DNA from: a virus
Reading direction: 5' to 3' (one strand)
Virus record (IMG/VR): IMGVR_UViG_3300035034_001897
Coordinates: 1 to 64,000 of that record
DNA length: 64,000 nucleotides
The notes beneath the pieces are model-generated. The model ran no database searches. It saw nothing but the letters and a program-made list of their open reading frames with translations, and was not told the DNA's origin. The first letter of the stretch is position 1. Every line of letters begins with the position of its first letter. The position numbers and the translations under genes are program-made. Below, piece by piece: positions 7,722-34,682 of the stretch.

Positions 7722-7738
7722 TTACAACGAACAGTAGT

Positions 7739-8309: not shown

Positions 8310-8329
8310 ATTAACATAATCAAATCGTA

Positions 8330-9708: not shown

Positions 9709-9729
9709 ACAAAAAACGTAAACAATATT

Positions 9730-10394: not shown

Positions 10395-10398
10395 TCAT

Positions 10399-11379
10399 AT
10401 GAAAACATTAAATCAACACAATTACAACGGTATAGATGCAACTATCATAGCAGATAGTAAGAACGAAGTAGGTAATCGTATCACATCATTCATCATCACA
10501 TTACCTAGAATTGTACTTGCAGAACTCAACACGCACAGAGCATTAACTAGAAACAGTGCATCAAGTAGAGCAGTTCCTCACAAAGTGATGGTGCAGAAAT
10601 GTATTGACACACCATTCATTCCAATCAAATGGATGAAAGATCACTCAGGAATGCAAGGAAATGATTTCTTTGAAGAGCAGAAAGATATAGATTATTTAAC
10701 TAACGATTGGTTAGAGGCTAGAGATAGTGCGGTAACTCACGCTGAAAGAATGAGTAGTGGTGGACTAACAAAACAGATTGTTAACAGATTACTAGAACCC
10801 TTCATGTGGCACACGGTTATTTGTACGGCAACTGAGTGGGAAAACTTCTATGCATTACGAGCACACGATGCTGCAGAAATACACATAGCGAAGTTAGCAG
10901 ATATGATGCTAGAACAAGCAAACTTGAGCGAACCTAAGCTGTTACAAGCTGGTGAGTGGCACATTCCATTTGGAGACGAGATGGATTCTATGAGAATCAT
11001 AGATTGCATCAACGAATTACGTATCAATGGAACATTTGATAGTAATGGAGACCTTGAACAGCAAATCGCTAAAGTAAAAGTGATGATTGCTACTGCAAGA
11101 TGTGCAAGAGTGAGTTATCTTAACTTTGAAGGTAAAGACGACTACGATGCAGACATCAAATTACACAATAGACTGAGTGGTATGGCACACTGGTCACCAT
11201 TCGAGCATTGTGCACAAGCGATGTGTGAAAGAGACTTTGAGCCATTCGATCATATGGAAGGTGCAGTAGATTGGATTAACGATCTATTTGGATGGTCAGG
11301 TAACTTTAAAGGATTTGTTCAGTATCGTAAAACGTTTGCAGGAGAAAATAAATCAGATAATCGTTTAATAAAGAAATAA
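10399..11379 (+). CDS. thyX: FAD-dependent thymidylate synthase (ThyX)
   Basis: 326 residues. It makes dTMP from dUMP using FAD and methylene-tetrahydrofolate, supplying thymidine for phage DNA. Visible support is NTHRALTRNSASSRAVP (residues 44-60), corresponding to the ThyX RHR...SxR substrate/FAD motif, and HWSPFEHCAQ near the C-terminus, corresponding to the conserved H-x-PFEH. It is longer than the usual 220-260 residues because of an extended middle. Stop overlaps the next start. Confidence 0.85.
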   Translation: MKTLNQHNYNGIDATIIADSKNEVGNRITSFIITLPRIVLAELNTHRALTRNSASSRAVPHKVMVQKCIDTPFIPIKWMKDHSGMQGNDFFEEQKDIDYLTNDWLEARDSAVTHAERMSSGGLTKQIVNRLLEPFMWHTVICTATEWENFYALRAHDAAEIHIAKLADMMLEQANLSEPKLLQAGEWHIPFGDEMDSMRIIDCINELRINGTFDSNGDLEQQIAKVKVMIATARCARVSYLNFEGKDDYDADIKLHNRLSGMAHWSPFEHCAQAMCERDFEPFDHMEGAVDWINDLFGWSGNFKGFVQYRKTFAGENKSDNRLIKK

Positions 11380-11567
11380 TGAGAGATTTTATAAGTTTAA
11401 TGCTAGTATGCATATTAGGATTGTTAATAATAGCGATCTGGCTATTTCCATTAATATTGTGTGCAGTCACAGGAAACTGGTGGCTAATGTTTATATACTT
11501 TGCTTGGTGGATTCCAGCATCTATATTAACAAGACTATTGTCTGAATTTATGGAGTTAGTACAATGA
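11379..11567 (+). CDS. Small membrane protein, two TM segments
   Basis: 62 residues, nearly all hydrophobic, with TM stretches at about 5-28 and 32-52 and several Trp at the interfaces. TAATG overlap with thyX. Unknown. Confidence 0.55.
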   Translation: MRDFISLMLVCILGLLIIAIWLFPLILCAVTGNWWLMFIYFAWWIPASILTRLLSEFMELVQ

Positions 11568-11656
11568 AAATGGTAATAACTGCACTGGTGATCATTGTAG
11601 TATCAATATTTCTAGCAAATATTGATAACGATGATAGTGATCACTTAGCAATGTAA
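11564..11656 (+). CDS. Single-TM micropeptide
   Basis: 30 residues: one TM segment (about 3-19) then an acidic tail (NIDNDDSDH). ATGA overlap with the preceding membrane protein suggests co-translation. Confidence 0.4.
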   Translation: MKMVITALVIIVVSIFLANIDNDDSDHLAM

Positions 11657-11666
11657 AACACGTATT

Positions 11667-12008
11667 ATGAAAAAGATTGAAATATTCGCATTAATTAATC
11701 TATTCGCAGATCATTGTAAGTATGGAGTTGATTTAGATAAACTACTCAAAGACATTCAGAAGCTTCAAGATAAGAAGTTGTCAGAAAAGGAAATGAATGT
11801 ATTGGCTAGCAAATTAAAACTTCATCCAATACTCAGTCAGCTTACTATTCATTTATCGTATGTAAGTGAAGAGAATAAGAAGGATCAGAAATCTCGTTAC
11901 GAAATCGTATTAGATGATGAAGGTCAAGGTGTAGTTGAGGACAATATGATTTGGGTGCATACTTTAGTGTACGACCTAATATCGCATTTAAAGTATGGTG
12001 TAAAATAA
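11667..12008 (+). CDS. Hypothetical helical protein
   Basis: 113 residues, helical and charged (KLQDKKLSEKEMNVLASKLK). Last gene before the large non-coding region and its promoter. No family recognised. Confidence 0.6.
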   Translation: MKKIEIFALINLFADHCKYGVDLDKLLKDIQKLQDKKLSEKEMNVLASKLKLHPILSQLTIHLSYVSEENKKDQKSRYEIVLDDEGQGVVEDNMIWVHTLVYDLISHLKYGVK

Positions 12009-12024
12009 ATTAAATTATTTTCGA

Positions 12025-12096
12025 TTAAATGTTGTCAGAAAGATATAAAGGTACTACCTTTATATCATAAGGAAATAGTAATAGTACAACATTTAA
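12025..12096 (+). promoter_or_regulatory. Phage promoter with 12-bp perfect dyad (operator-like)
   Basis: TTG at 12032-12034, 20-base spacer, TACCTTTA at 12055-12062. GATATAAAGGTA (12042-12053), one base, then TACCTTTATATC (12055-12066) is a perfect 12-1-12 palindrome covering the -7 box. A second perfect inverted repeat, TTAAATGTTGT (12025-12035) and ACAACATTTAA (12086-12096), brackets the promoter. It stands before a 38-residue gene and the structured RNA region. Confidence 0.8.
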
Positions 12097-12108
12097 AAAT
12101 CGGAAATT

Positions 12109-12225
12109 ATGACACCAACACAAGTAGAAATCGCAACAGCAGTAACGATAGCAGTAGTATTAATCGTAATTTTCATCAAGTTCGGAGGACTGAGCGGTGG
12201 AGCACGAAACGCAATATTCAGATAA
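12109..12225 (+). CDS. Single-TM micropeptide
   Basis: 38 residues with one TM segment (about residues 8-25) and a Gly/Arg-rich tail. Well supported for its size: the promoter lies 47 bases upstream and AAAATCGG (12096-12103) five bases before ATG. It immediately precedes the structured RNA region, so it may be the only protein on that transcript. Confidence 0.55.
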   Translation: MTPTQVEIATAVTIAVVLIVIFIKFGGLSGGARNAIFR

Positions 12226-12229
12226 CATT

Positions 12230-13310
12230 TAAGATAGGTTACCAATCATAGTGTAGAGTCTTCTCAACCTAAAAGCACGTCTGCAAATTAGCAGAAAGAG
12301 AATCGCTAGGAGTGATTCAGAGAGGTACAGCAAACAAAAGTTCATTGACATATTGAAGTGAGAGAATGATCAAATAGGCAGTAGTCAATCTCGTACTATC
12401 TTATAGTACCAGACATTATGACAGAGCCATCGAAAGAATAGATCACTCATCTTGCGACTGGGAACGATGCGCTCGCAAGGTGTACTCTGAATCTTTCACT
12501 TCAATATAACTTAAACTACCCTACGTGTAAATGCAATAATCTCCTCTTGCCAGGATCAAAGATTTACAGTTCTTTAAGGGGCGTGCAGATAAATGTGAGT
12601 CTGTAACAAACACACTAGTGAGAGCCTTCGAGCCAATTTTCATTGGGAAGCAGTATCTAGCGAACGTATAACGGCTAGTGTGTTTTAAAATACAAGGTTT
12701 AGATCGTGGACACCTAATCAGTAGAATCGTGGCGTAACCTGAGTGAAATTAGATCTTATTAAACTTTGGTGATTCTTAGTGGAAAAGTGAAAGTAGTAGC
12801 TGAAAACCTCCGTTTCGAAAAGACGCTTGTGAAAGAATGTCCTGCTTACAATAGATTGCTGTGTGAGAACTTCAATTGGATTGAGATAGAAACGAAAGTA
12901 TTGAAGAAGTCTGTCTATCATCACTGACAGAGGGGTATAGAGTTAGCGTACGACAATAACTCTATATGCGACCGAAAAATCGATGATGTGGAATAATATG
13001 TGTGTAGCTCAGTAGGTAGAGCGCTGGTTAATACTTAGCGTCAGTGGTTCGATCCCACTCCACATTCAAATGAGGCATCGTTATGCAAAACTATTGTGAA
13101 GTTCCGTGATAAGTATCTTGAGGGTTGAGTGCACATACCGATAATAGAGAAAGTGGAACAGAACTGTAAGAAAGGAACAGTCTTTCAGTTCGTTGAAAGT
13201 AGAACGATGCTAAAGAATTGCTTTATAGAGTGGCGTAATCAACTCTTGCAGTGGTGTAGGTAGGGAAGGAGATGTTTCCTCAATTAAATTCCCTAACTTC
13301 ACGCCAAACA
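12230..13310 (+). ncRNA. Large structured non-coding RNA region
   Basis: About 1.08 kb with no credible gene. It is packed with perfect inverted repeats: 7 bp at 12300/12312, 12 bp at 12350-12361/12496-12507 enclosing hairpins at 12393/12403 and 12451/12473, 7 bp at 12526/12562, 11 bp at 12608-12618/12675-12685, 10 bp at 12936-12945/12957-12966, 6 bp at 13161/13186 and 13231/13301 with 7 bp at 13261/13289 inside. It also holds a tRNA-like cloverleaf at 12985-13066. GCATCGTT (13075-13082) can pair with AACGATGC at 13203 or in the loop at 12463. Size, phage setting and tRNA association recall the GOLLD and ROOL large ornate RNAs; class membership is not tested. It may be one RNA or several. Confidence 0.7.
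12985..13066 (+). tRNA. tRNA-like cloverleaf, probably not a normal tRNA
   Basis: D-arm GCTC-AGTAGGTA-GAGC (13007-13022), anticodon arm GCTGG-TTAATAC-TTAGC (13023-13039, two G-T pairs, anticodon AAT at 13030-13032) and a perfect T-arm AGTGG-TTCGATC-CCACT (13043-13059) are present. The acceptor is odd: GATGTGG (12985-12991) pairs with CCACATT (13060-13066) only if 13 extra bases sit before position 8; the alternative ATGTG (12998-13002) gives five pairs. Base 26 seems missing, the variable loop is three bases, and no CCA follows. It looks like a decayed tRNA or tRNA mimic inside the larger RNA. Confidence 0.5.
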
Positions 13311-13318
13311 ATAATATT

Positions 13319-13567
13319 ATGAAAAAGTTAATTTTTATATTACTAACAATATGCTGCATAAGTGTGCAAGCTCAGAGTAAGAAGGTTGTGATGACTATGG
13401 AGATCACTATACAAAGTGATAATCAATGTAAGTTAGATACTACTAAAGTGATTAAGAACATAAAAAAGGATACTTTATCGAAAGTAGTATTGGTCAAGAT
13501 AAATGCATTAATAGCATCGAAATCTAATGACAGTATCATCAAAAGTAGTTATTACGATTTTAAATAG
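13319..13567 (+). CDS. Small secreted protein
   Basis: 82 residues with a clear Sec signal peptide (MKKLIFILLTICCISVQAQ, cleavage after AQ as is usual in Bacteroidota) and a basic mature part of about 63 residues. It follows the structured RNA with an A/T leader ending AATATTATG. Export of a phage early product to the periplasm suggests an envelope role such as superinfection control; this is inference. Confidence 0.6.
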   Translation: MKKLIFILLTICCISVQAQSKKVVMTMEITIQSDNQCKLDTTKVIKNIKKDTLSKVVLVKINALIASKSNDSIIKSSYYDFK

Positions 13568-13579
13568 TATATTTATCGA

Positions 13580-13800
13580 ATAGAGAACTGAAACCGACCA
13601 GCTCTTAAAATATTAGAAGATGTAGGCAACTACATCAAGTGTACCAGCTGTATAGTAATATGTTGGATATGGGTGAAAGTTGGAATAAGTTATTTAGAAT
13701 ATACCAGCAACTAGCCAAGCACTTAGGAGTTTACAGCAAGAACTTAAATCGTTCCCGATAATCGATTTTATTTCGCGACCTCATTGAGGTGCTAATTTTT
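13580..13800 (+). ncRNA. Structured gene-free stretch, possible small RNA
   Basis: No gene. GATGTAG-GCAA-CTACATC (13619-13636) is a perfect 7-bp hairpin closed by a GNRA tetraloop, inside CAGCT (13599-13603)/AGCTG (13646-13650). A TATATTTA box lies at 13568-13575 just upstream, without a visible TTG. ACCTC-ATT-GAGGT near 13780-13793 followed by TTTTT could terminate it. It may be a separate RNA or a structured leader of the next gene. Confidence 0.45.
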
Positions 13801-13821
13801 AACTTAATACCCTTTTCAATA

Positions 13822-14187
13822 ATGAAAAAGTTTATTTTTACAGTGTTAGTGATGATTGCCTTCGTAGGAACATCATTCGCAACAACAGCCACAATCCAGT
13901 CAACCATTCAAGATGACCATCCAATCTTTGTATTAGATTACGATGTGAATATTACAGCTGGAGATTTCAATTTTGATGCAAACCTGGAAACATATACTGT
14001 CAAAGCAGTCACCGACGAGGTCGGATATGAACCCACATCACTTATTAAAAATACGAAAGCGTTAGCAGTACAGCCGATCACTTTATTTGAGAGGGCAATT
14101 TATCGATATGATAATCGAATGCCAATCAATAAATACATACAAGTAAAAAGTTATAAGCAGTTTGCCTCATACGACTTAATGATGTAG
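13822..14187 (+). CDS. Secreted hypothetical protein
   Basis: 121 residues from the ATG at 13822; the frame is open upstream to 13789 but the hairpin/T-run lies there and the chosen start gives a clean signal peptide (MKKFIFTVLVMIAFVGTSFA). The mature part has no recognised domain. Ends just before a strong terminator, so it closes a short unit of RNA plus secreted genes. Confidence 0.65.
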   Translation: MKKFIFTVLVMIAFVGTSFATTATIQSTIQDDHPIFVLDYDVNITAGDFNFDANLETYTVKAVTDEVGYEPTSLIKNTKALAVQPITLFERAIYRYDNRMPINKYIQVKSYKQFASYDLMM

Positions 14188-14210
14188 TAACAATGCTAAC
14201 AAATATATTG

Positions 14211-14242
14211 AAAGTCCTTAGCAAAAGTTAAGGACTTTTTTT
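14211..14242 (+). terminator. Rho-independent terminator
   Basis: AAAGTCCTTA (14211-14220), 8-base loop, TAAGGACTTT (14229-14238) then a T run to 14242. Separates the RNA/secreted gene unit from the tagged-protein cluster. Confidence 0.85.
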
Positions 14243-14271
14243 GTTATATTTATCACCCAATTATCGATTGA

Positions 14272-15459
14272 ATGAACTTAGACGATCAAATTAGAAATAG
14301 CATTACACAAAGACGTGATGTCATTGCAGGTAACATAGTTAAAGGTAAACCATCTATGCCAATTGGAACCATTTCAAATGGTCGTAAAAAGATAGCAGAA
14401 GGTCAGTGGAGAGATGTTGTTGATGGAAACAAAAAGCCTAAACAAAACAAAGAGAAGATTAAACTCAGTGCAAAAGTGCTTGCATTAAATGAGAAACATC
14501 AACTCAGTCGATTGCCAATAGATATGCCTCATAATGAAGTGATCATCAATAAAGGTGAAGCGAAAAGTAATTGGATTCTCAAATGGATTGATCCTAAAAC
14601 ACAGAAGGCAGTTACAGCATATAGTAAAGCATTTCTCAAGAAGAATGCACAAGACAAATGGAAGCGTATAGAAAACGTATCTAAGAAAGATATCAGTGCA
14701 ATCAAGATTGGTGCAGACAAATTGATAGTAGGTAGTAATGCTGCTGAACAACAAAGTGGTGCCATAGTAAGCATCATCAGTCAAACTGGGTTGAGACCTG
14801 GAAGTAGAAGTGGTTTCAACAGCACACAAAACAGAGGAGTAAGTACACTCGCTAAAAAGAATATCAAGATTGAGGGAAGTAAAATCACTTTTGAATTCAA
14901 AGGTAAATCGTACAAGAACAACACTGCTGAGATAAATGATAGTGTATTAGCTAACTATCTCAGTGAAAGAATGAGTAAGGTTAAAGGAGAAGACTCCTTC
15001 ATATTCAATACTACAATTAACAAGGTAAGAGATGACTTTAAAGATAGTATCACACCAAATGATTCTATCAAACTCAAAGATATGCGAACATACATAGCAA
15101 CTGACATTGCGAGAGATATGTTAATGCACAATAAATTTGAAGTGCCTCAAAAAGGTGCAAAGAAAGCAATACAAGGTAAGTTGATGGAAGTATTTAAAGC
15201 TGTAAGTAATCAGCTGAACAATAGTCCTACAATGGCTAAAACAAGCTATATTCATCCTAACGTAATCAATGAATGGCTAGAAGGTTTAGGTGTGAAAGAA
15301 GCAGATATGTTTATGATGAAAGCTGTCAATTACACTGAGGCATTAAAAGCAATGAAACTTAGAAGAGACCCTGACAATATTGAGGGGGACGATAACGAAG
15401 ATTTTGACGATATTGATGAATATAATCTACCAGATTGGTGGGACCCAACATTACAATAA
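14272..15459 (+). CDS. Topoisomerase IB-like enzyme with N-terminal tag
   Basis: 395 residues. Type IB topoisomerases nick one strand through a tyrosine and relax supercoils. The catalytic set is visible: R175 in QTGLRPGS, K212 in FEFKGKS, R272 in LKDMRTYIAT and Y326 in MAKTSYIHP, in the correct order. The first 50 residues carry the tag shared with four or five other proteins here (QIRNSITQRRD...IVKGKPSMPIGTISNGRKK...GQW). The tail is acidic (residues 365-395). Virion delivery is an inference from the tag; a purely intracellular role in replication or packaging is equally possible. Confidence 0.85.
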   Translation: MNLDDQIRNSITQRRDVIAGNIVKGKPSMPIGTISNGRKKIAEGQWRDVVDGNKKPKQNKEKIKLSAKVLALNEKHQLSRLPIDMPHNEVIINKGEAKSNWILKWIDPKTQKAVTAYSKAFLKKNAQDKWKRIENVSKKDISAIKIGADKLIVGSNAAEQQSGAIVSIISQTGLRPGSRSGFNSTQNRGVSTLAKKNIKIEGSKITFEFKGKSYKNNTAEINDSVLANYLSERMSKVKGEDSFIFNTTINKVRDDFKDSITPNDSIKLKDMRTYIATDIARDMLMHNKFEVPQKGAKKAIQGKLMEVFKAVSNQLNNSPTMAKTSYIHPNVINEWLEGLGVKEADMFMMKAVNYTEALKAMKLRRDPDNIEGDDNEDFDDIDEYNLPDWWDPTLQ

Positions 15460-15461
15460 CT

Positions 15462-15917
15462 ATGGATTTAGAAGAGCAAATTAGATCAAGAAGACGTGAA
15501 CAAGCTGCACAAATTGCACAATCATTAGGTGTAGATTTGATTAAAGGTAAGGCTGCTGATGAAGGTGAAGAAAGAGAGTGGGGTGGTAAGAAATATAAGA
15601 AAACTAGTGGTAAATGGATACCAGTTACTGATGGAAAAGATAAAAAGAAGGATGATGACCCGAAGAATTCATCTAAAAAGTCAGAGGATCCTAAATCAGA
15701 TGGTAAAGCAAAACCTAGTGCAGGTGAAGGTGTTGATAAGCACGAAATAGCACAACTTACTGCATTGAAAGCTACAATGGAATCTAATCCAGAAAAAGCA
15801 TATGAAATCTTCCAATCACTCAGTCCAGAAGCGCAACAAGCTGTTCCTCAAGATGTGGTTAACAAATTGGTTGAAGGTAGTCATAGTGAAGGTGAAGATG
15901 AGGCTGAAGGTGTTTGA
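15462..15917 (+). CDS. Tagged acidic protein, perhaps N-terminal half of a frameshifted gene
   Basis: 151 residues from ATG 15462, 2 bases after the topoisomerase stop. The N-terminus bears the shared tag (LEEQIRSRRREQAAQIAQ...LIKGK then KKYKKTSGKWIPV). A Lys/Asp/Ser-rich linker follows, then a helical part with LSPEAQQAVPQDVV. It ends in acidic residues at a TGA (15915-15917) while the same acidic composition continues in the +1 frame. The context GGT-GTT-TGA-G resembles +1 shift sites such as the prfB CTT-TGA; alternatively an indel or two genes. Confidence 0.65.
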   Translation: MDLEEQIRSRRREQAAQIAQSLGVDLIKGKAADEGEEREWGGKKYKKTSGKWIPVTDGKDKKKDDDPKNSSKKSEDPKSDGKAKPSAGEGVDKHEIAQLTALKATMESNPEKAYEIFQSLSPEAQQAVPQDVVNKLVEGSHSEGEDEAEGV

Positions 15918-16947
15918 GGATGACGATCAAGAGTCTTTTGATCAAGCAGCTTATGATAAGGCTATTGAATCTAAAGATACTAATGCAGTTATTGAGCAAG
16001 CAGTTAAGTTGAAGGATGAAGAATTGCAAGAGAAAATTGACATACATTATCAAATGGCCAGTGCAGGAGCAACTGGTGGTCACACAAAGTTAGTTAATAT
16101 CTTAGGTAAAATAAAAGAAGCGAGATTAGAAGGTTTAAATAATGTAAACGATTCTTACTCAAAAGAGCAGATTCACAGTGAAATCGATAGTCAGTTAGAA
16201 AACTTCTTTGAAGACACTTCAAATATAGATGTTGAAGGATTAAAAGAAGAGGTTGAAAAAAGATTTCAAGAAGAAGATAAAAAAGAAAAGGCAACTAGTG
16301 ACAGAGATATGCAAGACGTAGTGTCAGCAATCTTAACAGATATGGTTGATGAGCAGAGTGAAGATGTAAAGAAAAAACAAGAAAATTCTCTAAGTCAGTG
16401 GAATGATGAATTAGATCCTGATGACGCTTTTTTTGATATCAAAAATCAAGTGAGAGAAGATTATGGAATAGACGAGCTTGATGAGGAAGGTGAGGAAGAA
16501 AATGAAGACGATATAATGAGAGAAGCTAATGATATATTTAGAGTCCGATTCGGATTTGATAATTATCAAGACGCTATATCTGCGATGGAAAGTAAGATGG
16601 AAAGTAAGAGTGAAAGTTCAAATAAAACTTATGATGGCATTAGAGAATGGGTAGGAGACTATAACGACGCTCAAGTAGAAAATGTAATCGAAGGCTTTAA
16701 TGAATCAGGATTTACTCAAAAGAATCTTGAGATAGCTCAAGGAAGGTCGTCAGAAGAACATATGAATAGAGTAGGAGAGCGAGCAGAATCTCTTGCAAAA
16801 AAAATCGTAGCAAACCAAAAAAATCCAATGGATCAAGATGAGGTAGCTGAAATTGTAGAAGGTATGATTGAATCAAAGTTCAAGATTACAGATTGGGATA
16901 ATCAAAAAAACATTAAAAAATCATTAGACATCTTATTACAATCATAA
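15898..16947 (+). CDS. Acidic helical protein, perhaps C-terminal half of the preceding gene
   Basis: From ATG 15898 the frame encodes 349 residues; the frame is open further upstream (to 15802) but that part is shadow of the preceding gene. The protein is very acidic and helical (VEKRFQEEDKKEKATSDRD, LDEEGEEENEDD). No family recognised. It carries no tag of its own, which fits its being the downstream half of the tagged protein at 15462. Two bases separate it from the AAA+ gene. Confidence 0.6.
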   Translation: MRLKVFEDDDQESFDQAAYDKAIESKDTNAVIEQAVKLKDEELQEKIDIHYQMASAGATGGHTKLVNILGKIKEARLEGLNNVNDSYSKEQIHSEIDSQLENFFEDTSNIDVEGLKEEVEKRFQEEDKKEKATSDRDMQDVVSAILTDMVDEQSEDVKKKQENSLSQWNDELDPDDAFFDIKNQVREDYGIDELDEEGEEENEDDIMREANDIFRVRFGFDNYQDAISAMESKMESKSESSNKTYDGIREWVGDYNDAQVENVIEGFNESGFTQKNLEIAQGRSSEEHMNRVGERAESLAKKIVANQKNPMDQDEVAEIVEGMIESKFKITDWDNQKNIKKSLDILLQS

Positions 16948-16949
16948 TT

Positions 16950-18323
16950 ATGGAATTAGAAAATCAAATTGCACAGAAGAGAGAATTGCAAAAATCCAAC
17001 ATTAATCAAATGATGGGTATTCAACATTCACAACCTCAACCTATAGTTGAAGTTGATATGGATGATGTGCGAAAAGCCATAACTCAAATCCAATTAGGTA
17101 GAGAGGAAAATCTTGACATCATCAAAGGGAAAGTTCTTCCAGTTGGAACCATTCGTAAGAGAGGTGATCAAAACTGGATTAAGATTTCAGAAACTGGACC
17201 TAGTGCAAAGCAATGGAAATATCACTCTAAAGCAGGTAGTGAGAAAGGTCAGACAGCTAAGATTGAAGCAATGAGTGAGCCTGAAAAGATGGAGTCAAGA
17301 GCACTTGCAAGTAAACTATTCACACTTGTCAATAAGGTAGGTGGAGCAAAGACGTTTGGAGAGCAAATGAAACTTATTGAAGACGCTGGTATTACAGATC
17401 CTGAAAAAGTGGTGGAGCTTACTAACCAAAACTTATCTGACGTATTGAAATATATGGATGGCAAAGGAATGGAAAAGAAGCGTCAAGACTTCAACATCAA
17501 AGACGAATTAGCGAAGTTAGAGATGATGGATGCTATTAAGACTGGTTTTGATAAAATCGATGTAAAAGATCGTTGGGAATCATATAGAGTATTTCTTGAT
17601 CTAGTTGCAAATGGTACTGCAAAGAGTATGATCGCTTATGGTACGGGAGGTATAGGTAAAACGTACAATGCAACAAAAATATTCGCAAAAAACAACTTAG
17701 CTGAATATGATGGAGATGTTCACGAAGCTGGTGATAGTAATTATGATTACGTTAAAATCACTGGTAAAACATCACCAACTGCATTATATGCAGCATTATA
17801 CGAACATAATGGTAAGTGTTTGATGTTCGATGACTGTGATAGTGTGTTAGAGCACGATGATTCAATCAACATTCTCAAAGGAGCGTTAGATAGTGGTGGA
17901 GATAATTCAATCGCTTATGCATCAGGTAAGAAGCTTAAAACAGAAAAAGGTGAGACAGTTCCTCAACGATTTAAGTTTACTGGTAGGGTAGCATTCATTA
18001 CCAATCTTACAGCTGAAAAAATGCCTCAACCTCTTCGTAGTAGAGCATTTACAGCAGATTTAACAATGACGCCAGATGAGACGGTAACGATGATGGAGGA
18101 AATTATCCACAAAATAGAATTTCAAAATGCTCAAGGTGCAGCGATACACGTATCAACTGAAGATAGACAGTCAGCAATCGACTTTATTTCAGATAATGTG
18201 AACAATATCAATGTTCGAGATCTCAATTCAAGAACGCTTGGGCAAATAGCAATAATCAAAAAGAAATTGAGCAGCCATCCAACATTAGATTGGAAAACTG
18301 CTGCGATTGCAATGTTAACATAA
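16950..18323 (+). CDS. AAA+ ATPase with N-terminal tag
   Basis: 457 residues. Walker A GTGGIGKT at 231-238, Walker B LMFDDCD at 291-297, sensor-1 FITNLT at 349-354 and arginine-finger candidates in LRSRAF (362-367) form a complete AAA+ core at about 205-400. The N-terminal 100 residues hold the shared tag in a longer form (LENQIAQKREL...DIIKGKVLPVGTIRKRG...QWKYHSK). A helical linker lies between. Likely a ring ATPase acting on DNA or protein; partner unknown, though the acidic protein just upstream is a candidate. Confidence 0.8.
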   Translation: MELENQIAQKRELQKSNINQMMGIQHSQPQPIVEVDMDDVRKAITQIQLGREENLDIIKGKVLPVGTIRKRGDQNWIKISETGPSAKQWKYHSKAGSEKGQTAKIEAMSEPEKMESRALASKLFTLVNKVGGAKTFGEQMKLIEDAGITDPEKVVELTNQNLSDVLKYMDGKGMEKKRQDFNIKDELAKLEMMDAIKTGFDKIDVKDRWESYRVFLDLVANGTAKSMIAYGTGGIGKTYNATKIFAKNNLAEYDGDVHEAGDSNYDYVKITGKTSPTALYAALYEHNGKCLMFDDCDSVLEHDDSINILKGALDSGGDNSIAYASGKKLKTEKGETVPQRFKFTGRVAFITNLTAEKMPQPLRSRAFTADLTMTPDETVTMMEEIIHKIEFQNAQGAAIHVSTEDRQSAIDFISDNVNNINVRDLNSRTLGQIAIIKKKLSSHPTLDWKTAAIAMLT

Positions 18324-18335
18324 AACACAAATATT

Positions 18336-18461
18336 ATGGCAAATGATTTAACACAAGTACCGTTAGATAAATTAGATTTGATTTATAAAACGCAGGAGTC
18401 AGGTCCTTTAAAGGATACGATTGCAAAGGAGATTCAGCATAGAGTAAATGCTGAAAAATAA
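18336..18461 (+). CDS. Small hypothetical protein
   Basis: 41 residues (MANDLTQVPLDKLDLIYKTQ...KEIQHRVNAEK), ATG 12 bases after the AAA+ stop, ending just before a promoter. Untagged. Plausible coding sequence, unknown role. Confidence 0.45.
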   Translation: MANDLTQVPLDKLDLIYKTQESGPLKDTIAKEIQHRVNAEK

Positions 18462-18473
18462 CTACACTAACTG

Positions 18474-18504
18474 TTGGTAGAAAGATATTAAAGTAGTATC
18501 TTTA
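18474..18504 (+). promoter_or_regulatory. Phage promoter, TTG-N20-TATCTTTA
   Basis: TTG at 18474-18476, TATCTTTA at 18497-18504, spacer 20 with AGAAAGATATTAAAGTAG as in the family. AAAGATA-N9-TATCTTT dyad present. Drives the tagged genes at 18525 and 18966. Confidence 0.8.
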
Positions 18505-18524
18505 TGTAAAGAAGTAATAACACT

Positions 18525-18956
18525 ATGAGCTTAGAGCAACAAATACGTAACAGAAGAATCGCACAAGCAAATCAAATCACAGATATGTGTGGTGGAGATA
18601 ATCTCGTCAAAGGTAAAGAAATGCCAGTAGGTACTGTTAGTAATGGCAGAAAGAAAATGCCAAATGGAAGTTGGGTGCCAGTTAGTGAAGAAAAAAGCTC
18701 CTCTAAGACACCTCATCCTAAACTAAAAGATTCTCATAGATGGCAAGTAGAATCTCATATGAAGCAAGCAATTAAAGGAGATAAAAACATAACAATCTCT
18801 ATGATGGGAGGAGATGTGACTACTCATAAGAAAGGCGAAGAGTTTATGTATAGAGCAACAGTTCAGTCAAAAACTAGAGATAAGATGAGAGAATCTTTAG
18901 ATAGTGCAGGAGTAGACATCTTGAGTGCAAAGAAGTTCGGAGAATTATTTAATTAA
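18525..18956 (+). CDS. Small tagged protein
   Basis: 143 residues. Residues 1-55 are the clearest copy of the shared tag (LEQQIRNRRIAQANQIT...NLVKGKEMPVGTVSNGRKK...GSWVPV). After a Ser/Lys linker comes a compact C-terminal domain of about 85 residues (HPKLKDSHRWQVESHMKQA to the end) that I do not recognise. Reads as tag plus cargo domain. Confidence 0.65.
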   Translation: MSLEQQIRNRRIAQANQITDMCGGDNLVKGKEMPVGTVSNGRKKMPNGSWVPVSEEKSSSKTPHPKLKDSHRWQVESHMKQAIKGDKNITISMMGGDVTTHKKGEEFMYRATVQSKTRDKMRESLDSAGVDILSAKKFGELFN

Positions 18957-18965
18957 CGAGTCGCA

Positions 18966-19496
18966 ATGGATCAAATCAAAAAATCAATCGAATCTATCTC
19001 AAGAGAAGATAACGCAGACATCCTAATTAAAGGAAAAGCCTTACCAATTGGAACGATTAAAAAGCGTCCTAACGGCAATTTCATTAAAACTGCAAGTGGA
19101 TGGAAATATCACTCGAAGCACGACAAGAATCAGAAAGCACAAGCTAGTGAGAAGAAAAGTGAAAGACCTCAAAGACACCAATTCAATTCTCAACAAGAAT
19201 ATGAAAAGAAGTTGTTATCTCACACTGGACCTGGAGGAGGAAATCAAGATAAAGGTAAATCTCCAGATGGAATTTCCGAGAGTATGCTTAAAAAAGTAAA
19301 TCTAGCGGATAACCATTTAGAAGGTAAAGTTTTTAATATAGGTAAAGGAGCTCGACTCAGAGTCGATAGTGTAAAAGGAGACATTGCTAAAATAACTAAA
19401 ATAGATAAGTTTAACAATACCTCAACACACGAGGTGTCTGTAAAAGACAATAGTGGAGAAGGAGGTTTATTTTCATATAAAGAAATTAAAAAATAA
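18966..19496 (+). CDS. Small tagged protein
   Basis: 176 residues. The tag (IKKSIESISRED...DILIKGKALPIGTIKKRPNGN then GWKYHSK) matches the AAA+ version most closely, including the terminal WKYHSK. A polar Lys/Gln linker and a C-terminal beta-rich domain of about 60 residues follow (KVFNIGKGARLRVDSVKGD), unknown. Overlaps the next small frame (TAATG). Confidence 0.65.
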   Translation: MDQIKKSIESISREDNADILIKGKALPIGTIKKRPNGNFIKTASGWKYHSKHDKNQKAQASEKKSERPQRHQFNSQQEYEKKLLSHTGPGGGNQDKGKSPDGISESMLKKVNLADNHLEGKVFNIGKGARLRVDSVKGDIAKITKIDKFNNTSTHEVSVKDNSGEGGLFSYKEIKK

Positions 19497-20104: not shown

Positions 20105-20584
20105 ATGAAAACAATAAAAGGAGATTTAATTCAGCTAGCATTACAAGGAGAATTTGATGCAATTGCACACGGATGTAATTGTCACAATATGATGGGTGCT
20201 GGAATAGCATTACAAATTAGAAAAGCATTTCCTGGTACATATCAAATAGATACGCAATACAGTCAGGTACAAGATGACTACAATAAGTTAGGTACTATTT
20301 CAGTATGTGACGTTGAGCAATATAACGACAAACAAGATCTCACTAAACAGACAGGATCGTTTACAGTTATAAACGCATACACTCAATTTGATGGAGGAAG
20401 GAATTTAGACTACGATGCATTGAAAATGTGTTTGAAGAAGATTAATCACTACTTTAAAGGAAAGAAAATTGGATTACCTCAAATAGGTTGCGGAATTGCA
20501 GGAGGTAATTGGAATATAGCAAAAAGATACATTGAGCAGTATTTAAGTGATTGTGATGTAACAATCGTTGAATATTCTCGTTAA
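20105..20584 (+). CDS. Macro domain protein (ADP-ribose binding)
   Basis: 159 residues, a complete macro domain: MKTIKGDLIQLA start, HGCNCHNMMGAGIALQI (residues 20-36) as the first ligand loop and LPQIGCGIAGGNW (119-131) as the second. Macro domains bind ADP-ribose and some, of the Poa1p type, remove the 1'' phosphate. In a phage this could reverse ADP-ribosylation or remove ADP-ribose signals used by NAD-based defences; that role is inference. Start set by AAAATCGT at 20093-20100. Confidence 0.85.
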   Translation: MKTIKGDLIQLALQGEFDAIAHGCNCHNMMGAGIALQIRKAFPGTYQIDTQYSQVQDDYNKLGTISVCDVEQYNDKQDLTKQTGSFTVINAYTQFDGGRNLDYDALKMCLKKINHYFKGKKIGLPQIGCGIAGGNWNIAKRYIEQYLSDCDVTIVEYSR

Positions 20585-26846: not shown

Positions 26847-26946
26847 AGAAAGGCTTGGTAGTTTAACTCAAAATGGTGAGATTTATCCATTAAGTTTACT
26901 CAACAATAGTAAAAGATGTAACAAAACTCTTCAATGTCATACTTAG
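26821..26946 (+). CDS. Small hypothetical protein
   Basis: 41 residues (MLVKSYVPKERLGSLTQNGEIYPLSL...), overlapping the frame before and the portal start after. Both overlaps fit the packing here, but evidence is thin. Confidence 0.35.
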   Translation: MLVKSYVPKERLGSLTQNGEIYPLSLLNNSKRCNKTLQCHT

Positions 26947-28649
26947 ATTATACCATTCCTACATCACAAGCATCATCATCACTCGACAGTGAACTACAGA
27001 GAATTCAAGTCGAGAAGGGTCAGATTGCTCAACGAGAATATAGAGCACTATCTCAAGCATTGTCATCAGACAATCCTAATGACATCATTAAAGCCAATAC
27101 TTATTGGGAAGATGTTCAAAACAGACAAGATAGTGGAGTCAAAACTAGACTAGTTGATCCTAATGAATGGACTCAAGGTGCTGGCTATAAACATAAAAGA
27201 TTTCAACTAGATTATAGTACATTGAGAAGGATGGTGTCAACTACTCCTATCATTAAAGCTATTGTAGGAACTAGACAGGCTCAAGTGAGTGCGTTTTCAA
27301 CTCCACAGAAGAGTAAGTATGAAACTGGATTCGTTATTCGTAAGAAAAGGGAGTTTTATACAGACGAAGAGCCTATTGTAACTCGAGAAGATAAGCAGAC
27401 TATTAATGAATTAACGAAATTCATTCTTAATGGTGGTGATGACGAAAATGCGTGGAATGGAGACACTTTTGATACGTTTCTTAAAAAACTAGCAAACGAC
27501 TCACTAACGTTAGATCAAGCGTGTTTTGAAATAGTTAGAAGTAATAAAGGTGAGCCAGTTGAATATCTAGCAGTAGATGGAGCGACAATAGTATTAGCAG
27601 ACACACATAACGATGAGCAAGAGGTTGTTGATAGAGAATATGATCACGCAGGAAATAAACGTAAAAGAGTAAGAGGCTATTTACCATCATACGTTCAAGT
27701 AATTGATTCAGTAATTCACAATGAATACTATCCTTGGGAAATGTGTATGGGAATTAGAAATTCTACTACAGATATCAGATCGAATGGGTATGGTAAAAGT
27801 GAAGTAGAGGAATTAGTTAGTATTATTACTTGGATGTTATATGGAGACACATATAACGGAAAATTTTTTAGTCAAGGTAGCAATCCAAAAGGAATGCTTA
27901 AAGTAGGTTCAGGAGTTAATAGAAACCGACTCGCAGAGTTTAGACAGCAATGGTTATCAATGGTAGCTGGAGTTCAGAATGCTTGGAAGGTTCCAATGGT
28001 TGAGGGAGATGTTGAATGGATTGATATGCAGAAAGGCAATCGAGATATGGAGTTCTCGGCGTGGCAAGAATACTTGATAAAGGTTGCGTGTGCAGTATTT
28101 AAGATCGCACCAGAAGAGGTTGGATTTAATATCGATAAGAGTGGAGGTCTTGGTGGAGAAAATGATAGCGATGTCAAAATTAGATATTCGAGAGATAAAG
28201 GATTGAAGCCAATGCTGAAATCATTTGAGTTCTGGATTAATAAGTGGTTAGTTGCTCCTAAAAATGCAGACTTTGAGTTTAAGTTTGTAGGATTAGATAC
28301 AGATAGTGAAGAGAAAGAGGTTGAACTACTCAATAAAAAAGTTGAGCATGGAATGGGTCTTAAAGAATATCGTCGTGCAATTGGATTGCCAGAAGATTTA
28401 GAAGAAGGAGACTTCCCACTTAACAATATATATGTTCAAATGCAAGGACAATTAGCAATGCAAGAGCAGAGTGAAGAAAATGGAGAATTCGTTGATCAAG
28501 ATCAGGCAAGTGAAGAAGATGATTTCTGGAACAGTATTGATATGGAAAAAGGTGTGCTTGATCAAATGAATCAATTGAAAGTGTATAAAGGCAACCCTAT
28601 GATGAAGGATGCATTAAATATGTTAATTGGAGATGGAGCAGCAAAATAA
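26934..28649 (+). CDS. Portal protein
   Basis: 571 residues. Portal proteins form the 12-fold ring through which DNA enters and to which the tail attaches. Support: size; QLDYSTLRRMVSTTPIIKAIV near the start; FFSQGSNPKGMLKVGSG in the middle; and WQEYLIKVACAVFKIAPEEVGF, the usual portal stretch before the wing. An acidic, Met/Gln-rich C-terminus follows. Head morphogenesis, protease and capsid genes lie downstream in the usual order. Confidence 0.85.
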   Translation: MSYLDYTIPTSQASSSLDSELQRIQVEKGQIAQREYRALSQALSSDNPNDIIKANTYWEDVQNRQDSGVKTRLVDPNEWTQGAGYKHKRFQLDYSTLRRMVSTTPIIKAIVGTRQAQVSAFSTPQKSKYETGFVIRKKREFYTDEEPIVTREDKQTINELTKFILNGGDDENAWNGDTFDTFLKKLANDSLTLDQACFEIVRSNKGEPVEYLAVDGATIVLADTHNDEQEVVDREYDHAGNKRKRVRGYLPSYVQVIDSVIHNEYYPWEMCMGIRNSTTDIRSNGYGKSEVEELVSIITWMLYGDTYNGKFFSQGSNPKGMLKVGSGVNRNRLAEFRQQWLSMVAGVQNAWKVPMVEGDVEWIDMQKGNRDMEFSAWQEYLIKVACAVFKIAPEEVGFNIDKSGGLGGENDSDVKIRYSRDKGLKPMLKSFEFWINKWLVAPKNADFEFKFVGLDTDSEEKEVELLNKKVEHGMGLKEYRRAIGLPEDLEEGDFPLNNIYVQMQGQLAMQEQSEENGEFVDQDQASEEDDFWNSIDMEKGVLDQMNQLKVYKGNPMMKDALNMLIGDGAAK

Positions 28650-29660: not shown

Positions 29661-30016
29661 AGAATAAGCAAGGATCTACACGTAAATGGAAAGATGGAGA
29701 TAAAGAAGGTTCTACGTTAATGCACTATGATTATGGATATATTAGAAATACTGTAGGAAACGATAACGATCACGTTGACTGCTACATTAATTCAAAAAAT
29801 ATAGTTGATCAAGTCTTTGTTATTCATCAAAATAGACCTAAAACTGGTCAATTCGATGAAGATAAGGTAATGTTAGGTTTTGATAGTGCAGACGAAGCTA
29901 AGAGAGCTTATTTAACTCATTACGATAGCGAAAAATTCTTTGGATCGATGACTGAAATGACCCTCGATCAATTCAAAAGCAAAGCGTTAGGTAAAAAAAA
30001 TCGTAAAATTCAATAA
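29645..30016 (+). pseudogene. InPase-like (inorganic pyrophosphatase-type) domain, frame-shifted from its start
   Basis: The body of the gene; read alone it would start at ATG 29720 (98 residues). MHYDYGYIRNTVGNDNDHVD holds a D-x-D-x2-D metal site (D15, D17, D20 from that Met), and GQFDEDKVMLGFDSADEAKRAYL follows. This order is the phage InPase domain (a pyrophosphatase-like fold found in polyvalent proteins co-injected with phage DNA). Whether it is active, regulated by frameshifting, or broken is open. Stop overlaps the next start. Confidence 0.7.
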
Positions 30017-30981
30017 TGATACTTAGTCCAAATCAAATTACAGATTTACTGTCGATTATAGACAAATACACTTTGACGTTTGCAGCACACCATATAGGAG
30101 TGCAAGGAATGAATCAAGCTCAACTAAATTTACTGCAGCAATCAGGAGTGAATATATCTAAGATAGCAATTCAAACATCAAATATTAATCAAGCATTTAG
30201 GTTTGGAATTCTTAGCAGTGCGTTAGGAGATGCAAATGCTAAGAATATGAGTTACAGTCAACTCAAAGGATTTATTAGTAGTGGAAAGATGTTTAAGTTG
30301 TCAGCTATTGAAAGTGCAGCTCTACAAAATCTACAATATCAAACAGTAACGCAAGTAGTCAAATTTGGAGATAAGATTAAAAACGATATCATTGACAAGT
30401 TGGTGTACGCTGACAAGAAAAATAATGCAGTTAAGCACAGTAAGGTTGTTACAGATGCAGTCAACAACGCAATACAAGAAAGAAAAGGAGTGCAATCAGT
30501 AATTTCAGATATTGGTCACGAATTAGATAATTGGGATAGAGATTTTGGTAGAATAGCAGATTTTGTAATGCATACAGCATTTGAGGAAGGTAGAGCATTG
30601 AAAATTATGCAGACACAAGGAAATCAATCTTTAGTATATAAAGATGTGTACTTAGGAGCTTGTCCTCATTGCATAAAAAACTATCTTACTGGAGGAATTG
30701 GAAGTGCGCCTAAAATATTCACTATTCAACAAATAACAGCGAACGGGACTAATGTAGGGAAGAAAGTGAAAGATTGGTTGCCAGTATTAGGACCTCTTCA
30801 TCCTTGGTGTAGATGTACATTAATGCAAGTACCTAACCAATTCAATTTAATAGACTATAACAACGGCTTATGGTTATGGGACGGAAGACAGTTTATAAGA
30901 AATGCTGATAAATATCAGCGCAAAGTAAGGCGAAATAGTAAAGTAAAAGTAACTGTTAACGGAAAAACAACGGAAGTATGA
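30016..30981 (+). CDS. Head morphogenesis protein, SPP1 gp7 / Mu gpF type
   Basis: 321 residues. The C-terminal part has DVYLGACPHCIKNYL and later LHPWCRCTLMQV, the cysteine/histidine pattern of the Mu F-like minor head protein domain. The N-terminal helices are variable. In SPP1 the homologue binds the portal and acts during DNA ejection. Its place between portal and protease is standard. Confidence 0.8.
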   Translation: MILSPNQITDLLSIIDKYTLTFAAHHIGVQGMNQAQLNLLQQSGVNISKIAIQTSNINQAFRFGILSSALGDANAKNMSYSQLKGFISSGKMFKLSAIESAALQNLQYQTVTQVVKFGDKIKNDIIDKLVYADKKNNAVKHSKVVTDAVNNAIQERKGVQSVISDIGHELDNWDRDFGRIADFVMHTAFEEGRALKIMQTQGNQSLVYKDVYLGACPHCIKNYLTGGIGSAPKIFTIQQITANGTNVGKKVKDWLPVLGPLHPWCRCTLMQVPNQFNLIDYNNGLWLWDGRQFIRNADKYQRKVRRNSKVKVTVNGKTTEV

Positions 30982-31227: not shown

Positions 31228-31512
31228 ATGAAAACATTTATTTTCGAAAACGCTGGAAAAACTTTAAAAGTAGCAATTAAATGCGATGTTTTCGCAACTA
31301 ATGCGCAACTACAAGAGCCAGGATTTGATACTCGATTTACAGCAATGACAGTAGAAGATAGCGATGAAGCAATTCAAGCTGGACTGAACATTAATGAGAT
31401 GGAGCAAAATCTTCAAGGATTGAAAGCAAAAGCTACAGAATTAGGATGGTCTCTTTCAGTAGCTGACATCAATGAAGAAGGTGGAACAATTGAATTAGTT
31501 GCAGCAGTATAA
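31228..31512 (+). CDS. Small acidic protein upstream of protease
   Basis: 94 residues, acidic, alpha/beta (MKTFIFENAGKTLKVAIKCDVF...). First gene after the late promoter and overlapping the protease start by one base, hence likely head-related. Not recognised. Confidence 0.55.
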   Translation: MKTFIFENAGKTLKVAIKCDVFATNAQLQEPGFDTRFTAMTVEDSDEAIQAGLNINEMEQNLQGLKAKATELGWSLSVADINEEGGTIELVAAV

Positions 31513-33092
31513 TGAAACAGCAATTCCAAACACATATACCTCTTGAGTTAATCAAAGGAAAGGATCAAGAAGGCAACCCTATTATGAAAATGAGAGGTGT
31601 TGCTTCTACTCCATCCGAAGATGCAGATAAGGAATTTTTAGAGCCTAAAGGATTTGACTCTGAATATTTCCTCAAGCACGGATTTATGAATTGGAATCAT
31701 CAAGCAAACAACGATCCGTCAGCAATTGTTGGCAAGCCTACTGGAGCAAGTGTTGATGGAGAAGATTACGTAATAGACTTCAATCTATTTCCAGATAGCA
31801 AAAAAGCTCAACAAATCTATGAATTGCAAAAAGTTCTCGAATCTCAAGGACTTGCGTTAGGTTTATCTATCGAGGGTAAAGTCCTTGAGAGAGATCCTTT
31901 AAATAATAGTAGAGTAACTAAAGCTAAAATAACTGGATGTGCTATCACGCCTAATCCAAAGAATCAAGATACAGTAACTCAAATAATTAAGGGTCACGAT
32001 TATGATGCATTAATTAGCGATTCTGACGAAGAGGACGAAGAGGATGAAGATGGTGATAAGAAAGAGAAGGCTTTATCTGCAGCATCAGCTAGTGGACAAG
32101 CAATAACAAAAGAGTCTCTTGATGGAGATTTAAAAGACATTACACAAAGTAAAAAATTAACCAAAGGTGAGGTTATTGAGAAAATTTCACTAGATTTACC
32201 ATCCCTAAACGAGGATCAAGTTAAATCTATTTATAATTTAACACATAAAATTCAAAAAGCAATCGATATGGATACTGCAACAAAACAAAAAGAAACTCCA
32301 ACAATTACTCCAGAAACGTTAAAGAAAGCGTACGATATACTAAATTTAGTATCTCCAGAAAAAGCGTTAGAAAAGAGTGAAGCTGGCAATAATGATTTGT
32401 CAGGTAATGACGGACTATCTCTTGAGGAAATCACAGCAAAGAAGAATGAACTGGAAAAATCTCTTGCAGCAGTTACTGAGCTTGAGAAAGCGTGTAAGAC
32501 TGAAAAAATGAATGACGACGACGATATGAAGAAGTCGGAAGATGATGATAAGAAAGATGATGATGATAAGAAAGATGATGATGCAGACGACGACAAAAAA
32601 GACGACAAAAAAGACGACAAAATGGAAAAAGGTCTTGGTGATACTGTAATAGGGCAGAACAATGACGAATTAATCAAGTCACTTACTGCAGTATTTAAAG
32701 GAGAGCTTGGTCAAATAGAAGCTGGATCGAATGAAAAATTCAAAGCTGTTGGTCAATTAATGAAGTCTTTCACTGGAACAGTAGAAGCTATTGACGAGCG
32801 ATTATCTGCTTTTGAAAATCAGACGAAAGGACGTAAGTCTGTTACAACTCAAAAGCAACACGTAATTGAAAAGTCGTTTGCAAGCGATCAACAAGACGTT
32901 CAAGGTGACCAAAAACAATATTTGAATTTGACAGCACACAAAACACAGATTTCAAAAGCTCTTACAGACAGTTTTCTAGCAAGCGAGAATAAAGATGAGA
33001 CTTTAAGAAAAGGAATACTATTATATGATCAATCTGGACAAGCAAATCCAACAATTCAAGCGAAAGCGAGAGAATTAGGATTGATCAAGTAA
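31512..33092 (+). CDS. Prohead protease fused to acidic scaffold
   Basis: 526 residues. Residues 1-160 resemble HK97-type prohead proteases: MRGVASTPSEDAD, catalytic His in MNWNHQA (H63) and Ser in LGLSIEG (S119). The rest is a low-complexity, highly charged helical region including a run of Asp and Lys (about 334-372), as expected for a scaffold that is degraded during maturation. Fusion of the two in one chain is known in other phages. It sits directly upstream of the capsid gene. Confidence 0.8.
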   Translation: MKQQFQTHIPLELIKGKDQEGNPIMKMRGVASTPSEDADKEFLEPKGFDSEYFLKHGFMNWNHQANNDPSAIVGKPTGASVDGEDYVIDFNLFPDSKKAQQIYELQKVLESQGLALGLSIEGKVLERDPLNNSRVTKAKITGCAITPNPKNQDTVTQIIKGHDYDALISDSDEEDEEDEDGDKKEKALSAASASGQAITKESLDGDLKDITQSKKLTKGEVIEKISLDLPSLNEDQVKSIYNLTHKIQKAIDMDTATKQKETPTITPETLKKAYDILNLVSPEKALEKSEAGNNDLSGNDGLSLEEITAKKNELEKSLAAVTELEKACKTEKMNDDDDMKKSEDDDKKDDDDKKDDDADDDKKDDKKDDKMEKGLGDTVIGQNNDELIKSLTAVFKGELGQIEAGSNEKFKAVGQLMKSFTGTVEAIDERLSAFENQTKGRKSVTTQKQHVIEKSFASDQQDVQGDQKQYLNLTAHKTQISKALTDSFLASENKDETLRKGILLYDQSGQANPTIQAKARELGLIK

Positions 33093-33152: not shown

Positions 33153-34682
33153 ATGGAAAACTTAACAGTACCCTTAGCGTCATATTCGCACGGAAGTGGT
33201 TTCGGAGCAGATGCAAGTCAGCAAGCAAATTTGAGCGCGTCTCAACTAGCTGAATTGTCAAAAGCCCTTGAAGCTGGTCAGTTGCAAGGTGGAGCAATGG
33301 GTAACCCTGCGCAATCAAACGGTGGTGCACTAAAGACAGAGTCTTTAGAAAGCTCACTTAAACTAATTACTTTCCGTGAAGCGGATATTCGTTTTTGGAA
33401 GAGATTCCCAAAAACAGCTGCTTATAATACGGTAGAAGAGTACAACCAACACACGAGCTATGGTACTGATCGTGGAGGATTCAATAACGAAGGTGAATTG
33501 CCGGAAGAAGAAGACTCTAGCTATGTACGTAAGGCAGAACACGTGAAGTATTTAGGTGTAACTAAATCAGTTACCCACCCAATGCAATTGGTGAATACTA
33601 ACGTTGGAGATATCATTCAGAAGGAAACTACTAATGGTATTATGTGGATCTTACGTAAAGCTGATAGAGCTTTATTTTATGGAGATGAGAAAGTTGTTTC
33701 TCAAGAATGGAATGGTTTATATGCTCAGCATTTAAACAATGATCAGTTTGCTAACTTAGAAGAGTATTACAGCTCTCCATTAGTAATTGACCTTAGAGGT
33801 TCTGCTCTTACAGAAGCTAACATTGAGAGTGGAGCTCAAGTACTTTTAACGAAGTTTGCTCAACCTAACTTAATGGTTGCACCTCCAGTAGTATTTAGTG
33901 AATTTGCTAAAGGATTCTACGCACGTCAACGTATTGCAACGGGAGGAAGTGTAAATGGTAATGTTACTGGCGCTACAATGGGTCAACACATTAGTAACTT
34001 CCAATCTATGTACGGATTGATTGACTTTGAGTATGACATCTTTGCTGCGAAAAACCCAGGGAAACTTTCTACAGTAGGAGGTACATCACCAAAAGCACCT
34101 ACAGCACCTACAGTTGGAGCAACTCCAATAGCAGTTGTAAATGCAGACGGACAGTCTCGTTTCAATGACGGAACTGGTGATTATTACTACGCAGTTACTG
34201 CTATAAACCGATATGGTGAATCAGCAATGACTCAGTTAGGAGGATCTGTTACTGTTGCAAACGCAGATGATAGTGTAGATTTACAGTTTACTGCGACACC
34301 AGGACCTTACACTCCAAATGCTTATGTAGTTTATCGATCTAAAAAGAATCCTTCTGGATCTTTTGCAATGACAACGATGTATCCTATCGCTACAGTACCA
34401 GTTGCTGGAACAGATGCTAAGAGAGGTTCTCTTGCAAATGGAGTTGATGGTGGTGCAGCAGGAATTGTTAGAGATAGAAATAGAATTCTACCTGATACTC
34501 AAGAGGCTCTTCTTTTACAAGGAGATACAGATGTGATCGAGTTCAAGCAACTTGCACCTCTTATGAAAATGCCACTTGCGAAGTTGAGTCCAGCTGACCG
34601 ATTTATGGTCTTGCTTTATGGTACTCCAATTGTGTACGCACCATCTAAGATGATACGTTACATCAATATTGGTAAAGCGTAA
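33153..34682 (+). CDS. Major capsid protein with Ig/FN3-like insertion
   Basis: 509 residues. Support: position after protease-scaffold and before a strong terminator; an N-terminal arm rich in Gln/Ala/Gly that could be cleaved; ITFREADIRFWKRFPKTAAYNTV and the later ALFYGDEKVV typical of HK97-fold capsids of large myoviruses. Residues about 312-425 (APTAPTV..., YYYAVTAINRYGES, AYVVYRSKKN) form an FN3/Ig-like domain inserted near the C-terminus, which would project from the shell. The final part returns to the capsid fold. Confidence 0.85.
   Translation: MENLTVPLASYSHGSGFGADASQQANLSASQLAELSKALEAGQLQGGAMGNPAQSNGGALKTESLESSLKLITFREADIRFWKRFPKTAAYNTVEEYNQHTSYGTDRGGFNNEGELPEEEDSSYVRKAEHVKYLGVTKSVTHPMQLVNTNVGDIIQKETTNGIMWILRKADRALFYGDEKVVSQEWNGLYAQHLNNDQFANLEEYYSSPLVIDLRGSALTEANIESGAQVLLTKFAQPNLMVAPPVVFSEFAKGFYARQRIATGGSVNGNVTGATMGQHISNFQSMYGLIDFEYDIFAAKNPGKLSTVGGTSPKAPTAPTVGATPIAVVNADGQSRFNDGTGDYYYAVTAINRYGESAMTQLGGSVTVANADDSVDLQFTATPGPYTPNAYVVYRSKKNPSGSFAMTTMYPIATVPVAGTDAKRGSLANGVDGGAAGIVRDRNRILPDTQEALLLQGDTDVIEFKQLAPLMKMPLAKLSPADRFMVLLYGTPIVYAPSKMIRYINIGKA

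Follow-up and report, generated by a model that had tools for sequence, protein, structure and literature searches.

Why should five otherwise unrelated proteins of one virus begin in the same way? The question is raised by a stretch of 64,000 nucleotides (hereafter the window; bases 1-64000 of the 78,946-base IMG/VR record IMGVR_UViG_3300035034_001897) from a virus of bacteria with a myovirus-type gene set, in which the following open reading frames (ORFs) share an N-terminal module, or tag, of about 30-60 residues:

14272..15459, plus strand: tagged topoisomerase IB, 395 residues (tag about residues 1-62, 14272-14457; Pfam PF01028, E 5.8e-16)
15462..15917, plus strand: tagged small protein with an acidic tail, 151 residues (tag about residues 1-62, 15462-15647)
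16950..18323, plus strand: tagged AAA+ ATPase of the T4 NrdC.10 family, 457 residues (tag about residues 1-105, 16950-17264)
18525..18956, plus strand: tagged small protein, 143 residues (tag about residues 1-62, 18525-18710)
18966..19496, plus strand: tagged small basic protein, 176 residues (tag about residues 1-62, 18966-19151)

The module, a basic helix plus a W-anchored beta-hairpin, proved to be mobile and conserved, and is carried by unrelated enzymes whose genes cluster with those of the phage head. It is probably an address tag that loads its bearers into the head, a reading that we adopted because related viruses place the module on many enzymes encoded beside capsid genes. Alignment of the five starts gave a short basic helix (DQIRNSITQRR, EQIRSRRRE, NQIAQKRE, QQIRNRR or DQIKKSIE) followed by KGK, P-x-GT and G-x-W, with an insert of about 35 residues separating the helix from KGK in the AAA+ protein. 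A preliminary description of this DNA had ascribed all of these elements to all five proteins, which was correct except that P-x-GT is present in four, the 15462 protein having DEGEE in its place.

We evaluated the resemblance with leave-one-out searches, in which a profile built from the remaining copies was run against the 157 ORFs of the genome. Each omitted copy was the top match (E 1.8e-11 for the topoisomerase, 2.4e-5 for the acidic protein, 2.8e-7 for the AAA+ protein, 9e-16 for the 18525 protein and 2.6e-7 for the 18966 protein), as was a sixth copy (E 6.7e-10) that lies beyond the window at 66755-67197 of the full record (G000; L004) and was absent from the preliminary description. 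No unrelated ORF fell below E 0.079, and within the genome the tag is limited to these six proteins, whose remaining parts, as first described, lack significant mutual similarity (blastp E >= 0.06). Chance likeness of lysine-rich starts was ruled out by these profiles together with a specificity control, in which no match came from 14 of the 15 other phage genomes (DAC16, crAss001, RM378, FCL-2 and the Cellulophaga phages tried were tag-free) and only Leptospira phage LE1 matched, the protein concerned having HAD-like and InPase domains and its gene adjoining that of the capsid. The frame of the sixth copy breaks within the tag, and the remaining tag and a short cargo follow in another frame ending at 67197, the result of either a sequencing error or gene decay. 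The surrounding segment of the record (G000:66249-72348; L004) holds genes resembling those for QueD, QueE, GTP cyclohydrolase and possibly a DpdA-like enzyme, a putative set that suggests 7-deazaguanine DNA modification.

A profile search of the tag among phages, which the preliminary description had proposed, showed it to be widely distributed. One IMG/VR scan with the AAA+ domain and three with tag alignments yielded more than 100 loci; these alignment-based scans worked where scans with the topoisomerase or the AAA+ protein as a single sequence found no matches, and tblastn of the tags against named phages was too weak for a module this short. The iterated profile collected 117 copies in 106 non-redundant proteins on about 45 viral contigs (including a few near-duplicates), with the tag starting within the first 60 residues in 79 of the 117 copies and occurring more than once in 10 proteins. 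The consensus, [LI]-x-K-[GA]-[KR]-x-x-P-[IV]-G-[TE]-[VI]-x-x-x-G-x-K-K-x-x-K-x-x-G-[KG]-W-x-P-V, is strongly conserved at K and W (100%) and at G (98%). This conservation bears on the idea of a leader prone to recombination, with the shared start aiding the swapping or duplication of cargos, or setting expression or stability, and having no role in localisation. Tag variants have been gained and lost between relatives, and tags within one phage are more alike than those of different phages (57% versus 42% identity, p 0.002), suggesting recent duplication or gene conversion. However, the constancy of K, W and G across very different phages, and the presence of internal tags, argue for selection at the level of the protein, not of the DNA or the start region, and we regard such a leader as very improbable. 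The likeness within a phage is also what would be expected if each phage had a receptor matched to its own tags, although recent duplication would give the same result.

Other shared starts were also found. The AAA+ cargo recurs in Bacteroides phage DAC16 with a different start, NRKLGRVGxxY, which it has in common with a zeta-type kinase and other proteins, and one protein with this start lies inside the portal-capsid interval (loci L005, which is DAC16, 7061-13813, and L144, 13451-15106; also L018, L019 and L041). A third start, ILNF[IL]KGxKGSxGxNVKYYKRExKAKGGYRYWY, is shared by the LE1 proteins LE1-0015 (helicase/methylase) and LE1-0026 (ParB-like), encoded at 13136-19051 and 28608-31187 (L146). 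With these further shared starts in DAC16 and LE1, the placing of a common short start on unrelated effectors recurs.

The cargos of the tagged proteins link them to polyvalent proteins, which sit beside virion genes and are predicted to be injected, according to the parts of Iyer et al. 2017 (PMC5512222) drawn on here. Pfam domains on tagged proteins comprised topoisomerase IB, InPase, ART-PolyVal, zeta toxin, NUDIX, SNF2 helicase, SAM lyase and sigma-70 region 2, and the AAA+ ATPase is a cargo both here and in many relatives. Several of these domains are among those typical of polyvalent proteins. Long relatives carry the tag at the front or between domains (for example 2071 residues in L110, 1603 in L111 and 1479 in L121), and at least two disparate activities occupy one polypeptide in L110, L111, L112, L121 and LE1-0025. 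None of the window's own tagged proteins has more than one domain recognised in Pfam or PHROGs, and the polyvalent-type domains (InPase, ART-PolyVal, SNF2 and others) lie on tagged relatives rather than on these five. The same tag fronts or separates such domains in the long relatives, and thereby connects the split and fused forms. The proposal in the preliminary description that these proteins represent a split version of a polyvalent set is therefore well supported, by the cargo types, by the clustering with head genes described below, and by the same tag inside true polyvalent proteins of relatives. Among individual cargos, a tagged sigma-70 region 2 protein (L105:6623-7375; Pfam E 9e-6) starts at the end of the portal gene and is possibly a virion-delivered transcription factor, and a tagged S-adenosylmethionine (SAM) lyase domain (L109:3485-4573; Pfam E 8e-9) is a possible anti-restriction cargo.

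The arrangement of the tagged genes was compared with that of the head genes. By portal and capsid, the nearest named relatives of the window genome are Bacteroides phages DAC16-23 and SJC03 and Chryseobacterium phage MA9V-3, followed by SPO1-like phages. Its structural and packaging genes include the following:

26934..28649, plus strand: portal protein (phrog_12, E 1e-40), in relatives the head gene nearest the tag clusters
30016..30981, plus strand: MuF-type head protein (phmmer E 2e-56 to an MA9V-3 protein interpreted as MuF)
31512..33092, plus strand: head maturation protease with a C-terminal extension (phrog_1028, E 1e-32), a possible scaffold or tag-binding partner
33153..34682, plus strand: major capsid protein (phrog_752, E 3e-83)
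at 50219: baseplate wedge
at 61623: terminase

L007 is the closest relative, with 57% identity in the AAA+ domain; there the portal gene (2198-3907) is followed by tagged proteins including the AAA+ ATPase (4807-11411) and then by MuF (11626), protease (13657) and capsid (15155) genes. Tagged genes likewise lie between the portal gene and the MuF, protease and capsid genes in L012, L014, L022, L072, L091, L095 and MA9V-3, the tagged proteins of MA9V-3 being encoded at 95271-96833, 97075-97521 and 98188-99825. In L109 and L110 the topoisomerase IB homologues carry tags of their own and are encoded directly behind the portal gene. In 17 whole records of at least 45 kilobases (kb), from loci found without the use of portals, the median distance from the portal to the nearest tag was 3.2 kb, versus 14.6 kb expected when the tag set was rotated at random on the records (p 6.5e-4, an approximate value because several records are related to one another and the AAA+ domain had led to some of them). 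This clustering, and the presence of a head protease among the clustered genes, would equally fit a module that marks minor head or assembly proteins docked to the portal or scaffold, which are retained or lost but never delivered to the host. However, instead of assembly factors the cargos are enzymes that have nucleotides, nucleic acids and host proteins as their targets, and PMC5512222, in the parts considered, predicts injection of the related polyvalent proteins, so that we think it improbable that the tagged proteins have a role confined to the head.

The tag itself resembled no known domain. When 85 copies were compared with Pfam and PHROGs, the best E values were 0.019 and 0.0079, from one to three members each; against PDB sequences the best E was 0.14, and a Foldseek search of BFVD and PDB returned nothing at E <= 0.001. 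Its identity as a known domain was thus rejected for these libraries. A housekeeping cellular domain was likewise rejected, as pattern-limited scans of 84,980 bacterial and archaeal genomes found no relative of the tag. An AlphaFold model of the tag of the 18525 protein (82 sequences; mean pLDDT, a per-residue confidence score, 79; predicted template modelling score 0.38) contained a helix at residues 3-21 and a beta-hairpin within residues 38-52 (strands 42-44 and 50-52), and was most confident at about residues 31-50.

These properties also bear on whether the module acts in the cytosol instead, as a docking or nucleic-acid-binding domain that recruits late enzymes to a common partner, such as phage DNA, a polymerase or a replication or packaging site, for which presence in the virion would not be required. 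The DNA-related cargos (topoisomerase IB, SNF2 helicase and sigma-70 region 2) fit such a domain, as do two observations that weigh, together with those that follow, against a head-loading role: the tag is basic (median net charge +13.5 per 100 residues), as nucleic-acid-binding modules are, and the sixth copy is located near replication and metabolism genes. Furthermore, no tagged protein has yet been observed in a virion. Mass spectrometry of leptophage virions covered LE3 and LE4 and not the tag carrier LE1 (PMC6078989), the MA9V-3 paper contains no mass spectrometry, and none of the tagged phages found has published virion proteomics. Tags inside the long proteins do not look like a simple N-terminal signal, the clustering statistics carry the approximation given above, and in the window genome the tagged cluster shares the strand of the portal gene and lies 7-12 kb upstream of it rather than between portal and MuF genes, which makes the argument weaker for this phage alone. 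Nevertheless, recruitment in the cytosol is opposed by the clustering with portal, MuF, protease and capsid genes, and by cargos whose action need not involve DNA (InPase, ART, NUDIX and zeta kinase); no Pfam DNA-binding family recognises the tag above chance, and the pattern-limited scans did not find it in cellular genomes. We consider a cytosolic domain unlikely, and infer that the tagged proteins are located in the virion. The observation that began this work was confirmed, and its central interpretation, packaging or delivery of the tagged set, is probably right and partly supported.

If the module is a head-loading tag, tagged proteins would be made late in infection, and the tag would dock each cargo onto a partner in head assembly, which may be the scaffold/protease core, MuF or the portal. 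The docked cargo would be enclosed in the prohead, leave with the DNA through the tail and act within minutes of the start of the next infection, when topoisomerase IB would relax the incoming DNA and the AAA+ ATPase would also be delivered. In relatives, the delivered activities would include ADP-ribosylation, pyrophosphatase, SAM lyase, sigma-factor and NUDIX functions. This phage encodes its cargos on separate genes, and relatives join several in one chain with tags between them.

A short N-terminal element that is proposed to bring otherwise unrelated proteins into the head for delivery is likewise found in the T4 internal proteins (IPIII and others) and P1 DarB. In P1, a reporter can be loaded into the capsid by the 30 N-terminal residues of DarB alone, and the same study found no consensus among the Dar N-termini (PMC9024508). 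In contrast to the T4 and P1 signals, the putative head-loading tag described here is a recognisable module across many cargos and phages that can also be internal and repeated and has a beta-hairpin. The preliminary description had likened it to the cleaved T4 signals, and this was not supported as regards cleavage: no conserved cleavage-like motif was seen after W-x-P-V in the tag alignment, though a head protease gene is present. Because no conserved site follows the tag, the likeness is one of role and not of proven processing. With polyvalent proteins, as presented in the parts of PMC5512222 used here, the tagged proteins share an overlapping repertoire (InPase, ART, SNF2 helicase and MuF-linked effectors), the same adjacency to virion genes and the same predicted injection, whereas the activities here lie on separate small tagged proteins; the passages concerned describe no shared tag, do not discuss topoisomerase IB among the domains, and ascribe processing to built-in metallopeptidases. 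MuF-fused effectors similarly join a head-associated module to toxins or enzymes for carriage with the particle, but the tag is far smaller, and a separate MuF gene coexists in the same gene clusters. Poxviruses package a type IB topoisomerase in the virion. Theirs, in an unrelated virus group, would be a parallel to the predicted packaging of the phage enzyme if our reading is right.

The individual proteins showed further features. The topoisomerase aligned with the Deinococcus radiodurans enzyme (PDB 2f4q, E 1.3e-9) at all five positions of the type IB R-K-R-(H/N)-Y set, which is complete here as R, K, R, N and Y and which we take to be catalytic. The ATPase domain of the 16950 protein (residues 169-454; phrog_1250, E 2e-37, with T4-like matches annotated nrdC.10) belongs to the same family as T4 NrdC.10; in contrast to the T4 protein, it and many relatives carry the tag, and the relatives' genes adjoin head genes. 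In L022 (5803-8301), a tagged AAA+ protein is split by an intein-like stretch directly after the P-loop glycines. The C-terminal part of the 18525 protein is weakly Arc-repressor-like (phrog_1539, E 0.002), and the 18966 protein matched no Pfam family. The 15462 gene is overlapped by a further reading frame:

15802..16947, plus strand: overlapping acidic ORF (26% identity over 91 residues to the C-terminal part of L007:4807-8043, E 2e-6)

The 15462 protein has homologues in L100, L101, L022 and the N-terminus of the 1079-residue L007 protein, which holds both parts in one chain; in L100 and L022 the first part is a separate short ORF. The frame switches at GTT-TGA (window 15900-15930), with the overlapping ORF resuming one base on. 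ORF 15802 after about 15911 is thus probably the continuation of the 15462 gene, or else a separate untagged partner, and the break may reflect a sequencing error, a split gene or +1 frameshifting. Just 3' of the tagged cluster, positions 20105-20584 encode an untagged macro-domain protein (Pfam E 6e-8).

Head-loading signals were already known, but the literature and libraries searched yielded no description of this family of tags, of how widely it occurs or of how it relates to polyvalent proteins. On balance we favour, with some reserve, the view that it is an undescribed and widespread plug-in head-loading tag of many tailed phages (Bacteroidota myoviruses, Leptospira phage LE1 and many uncultured phages), matched in version to each phage and predicting the injected set, including a virion topoisomerase IB. 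Injected phage proteins have mostly been found singly, by virion proteomics. If this view is correct, the delivered set of a phage would be predictable from its genome by means of the tag, a single docking site would explain the head entry of unrelated enzymes, and solo effectors would be tied to polyvalent proteins by a common signal. It would also predict a phage virion containing a type IB topoisomerase, and would provide a part for loading chosen proteins into laboratory phage particles.

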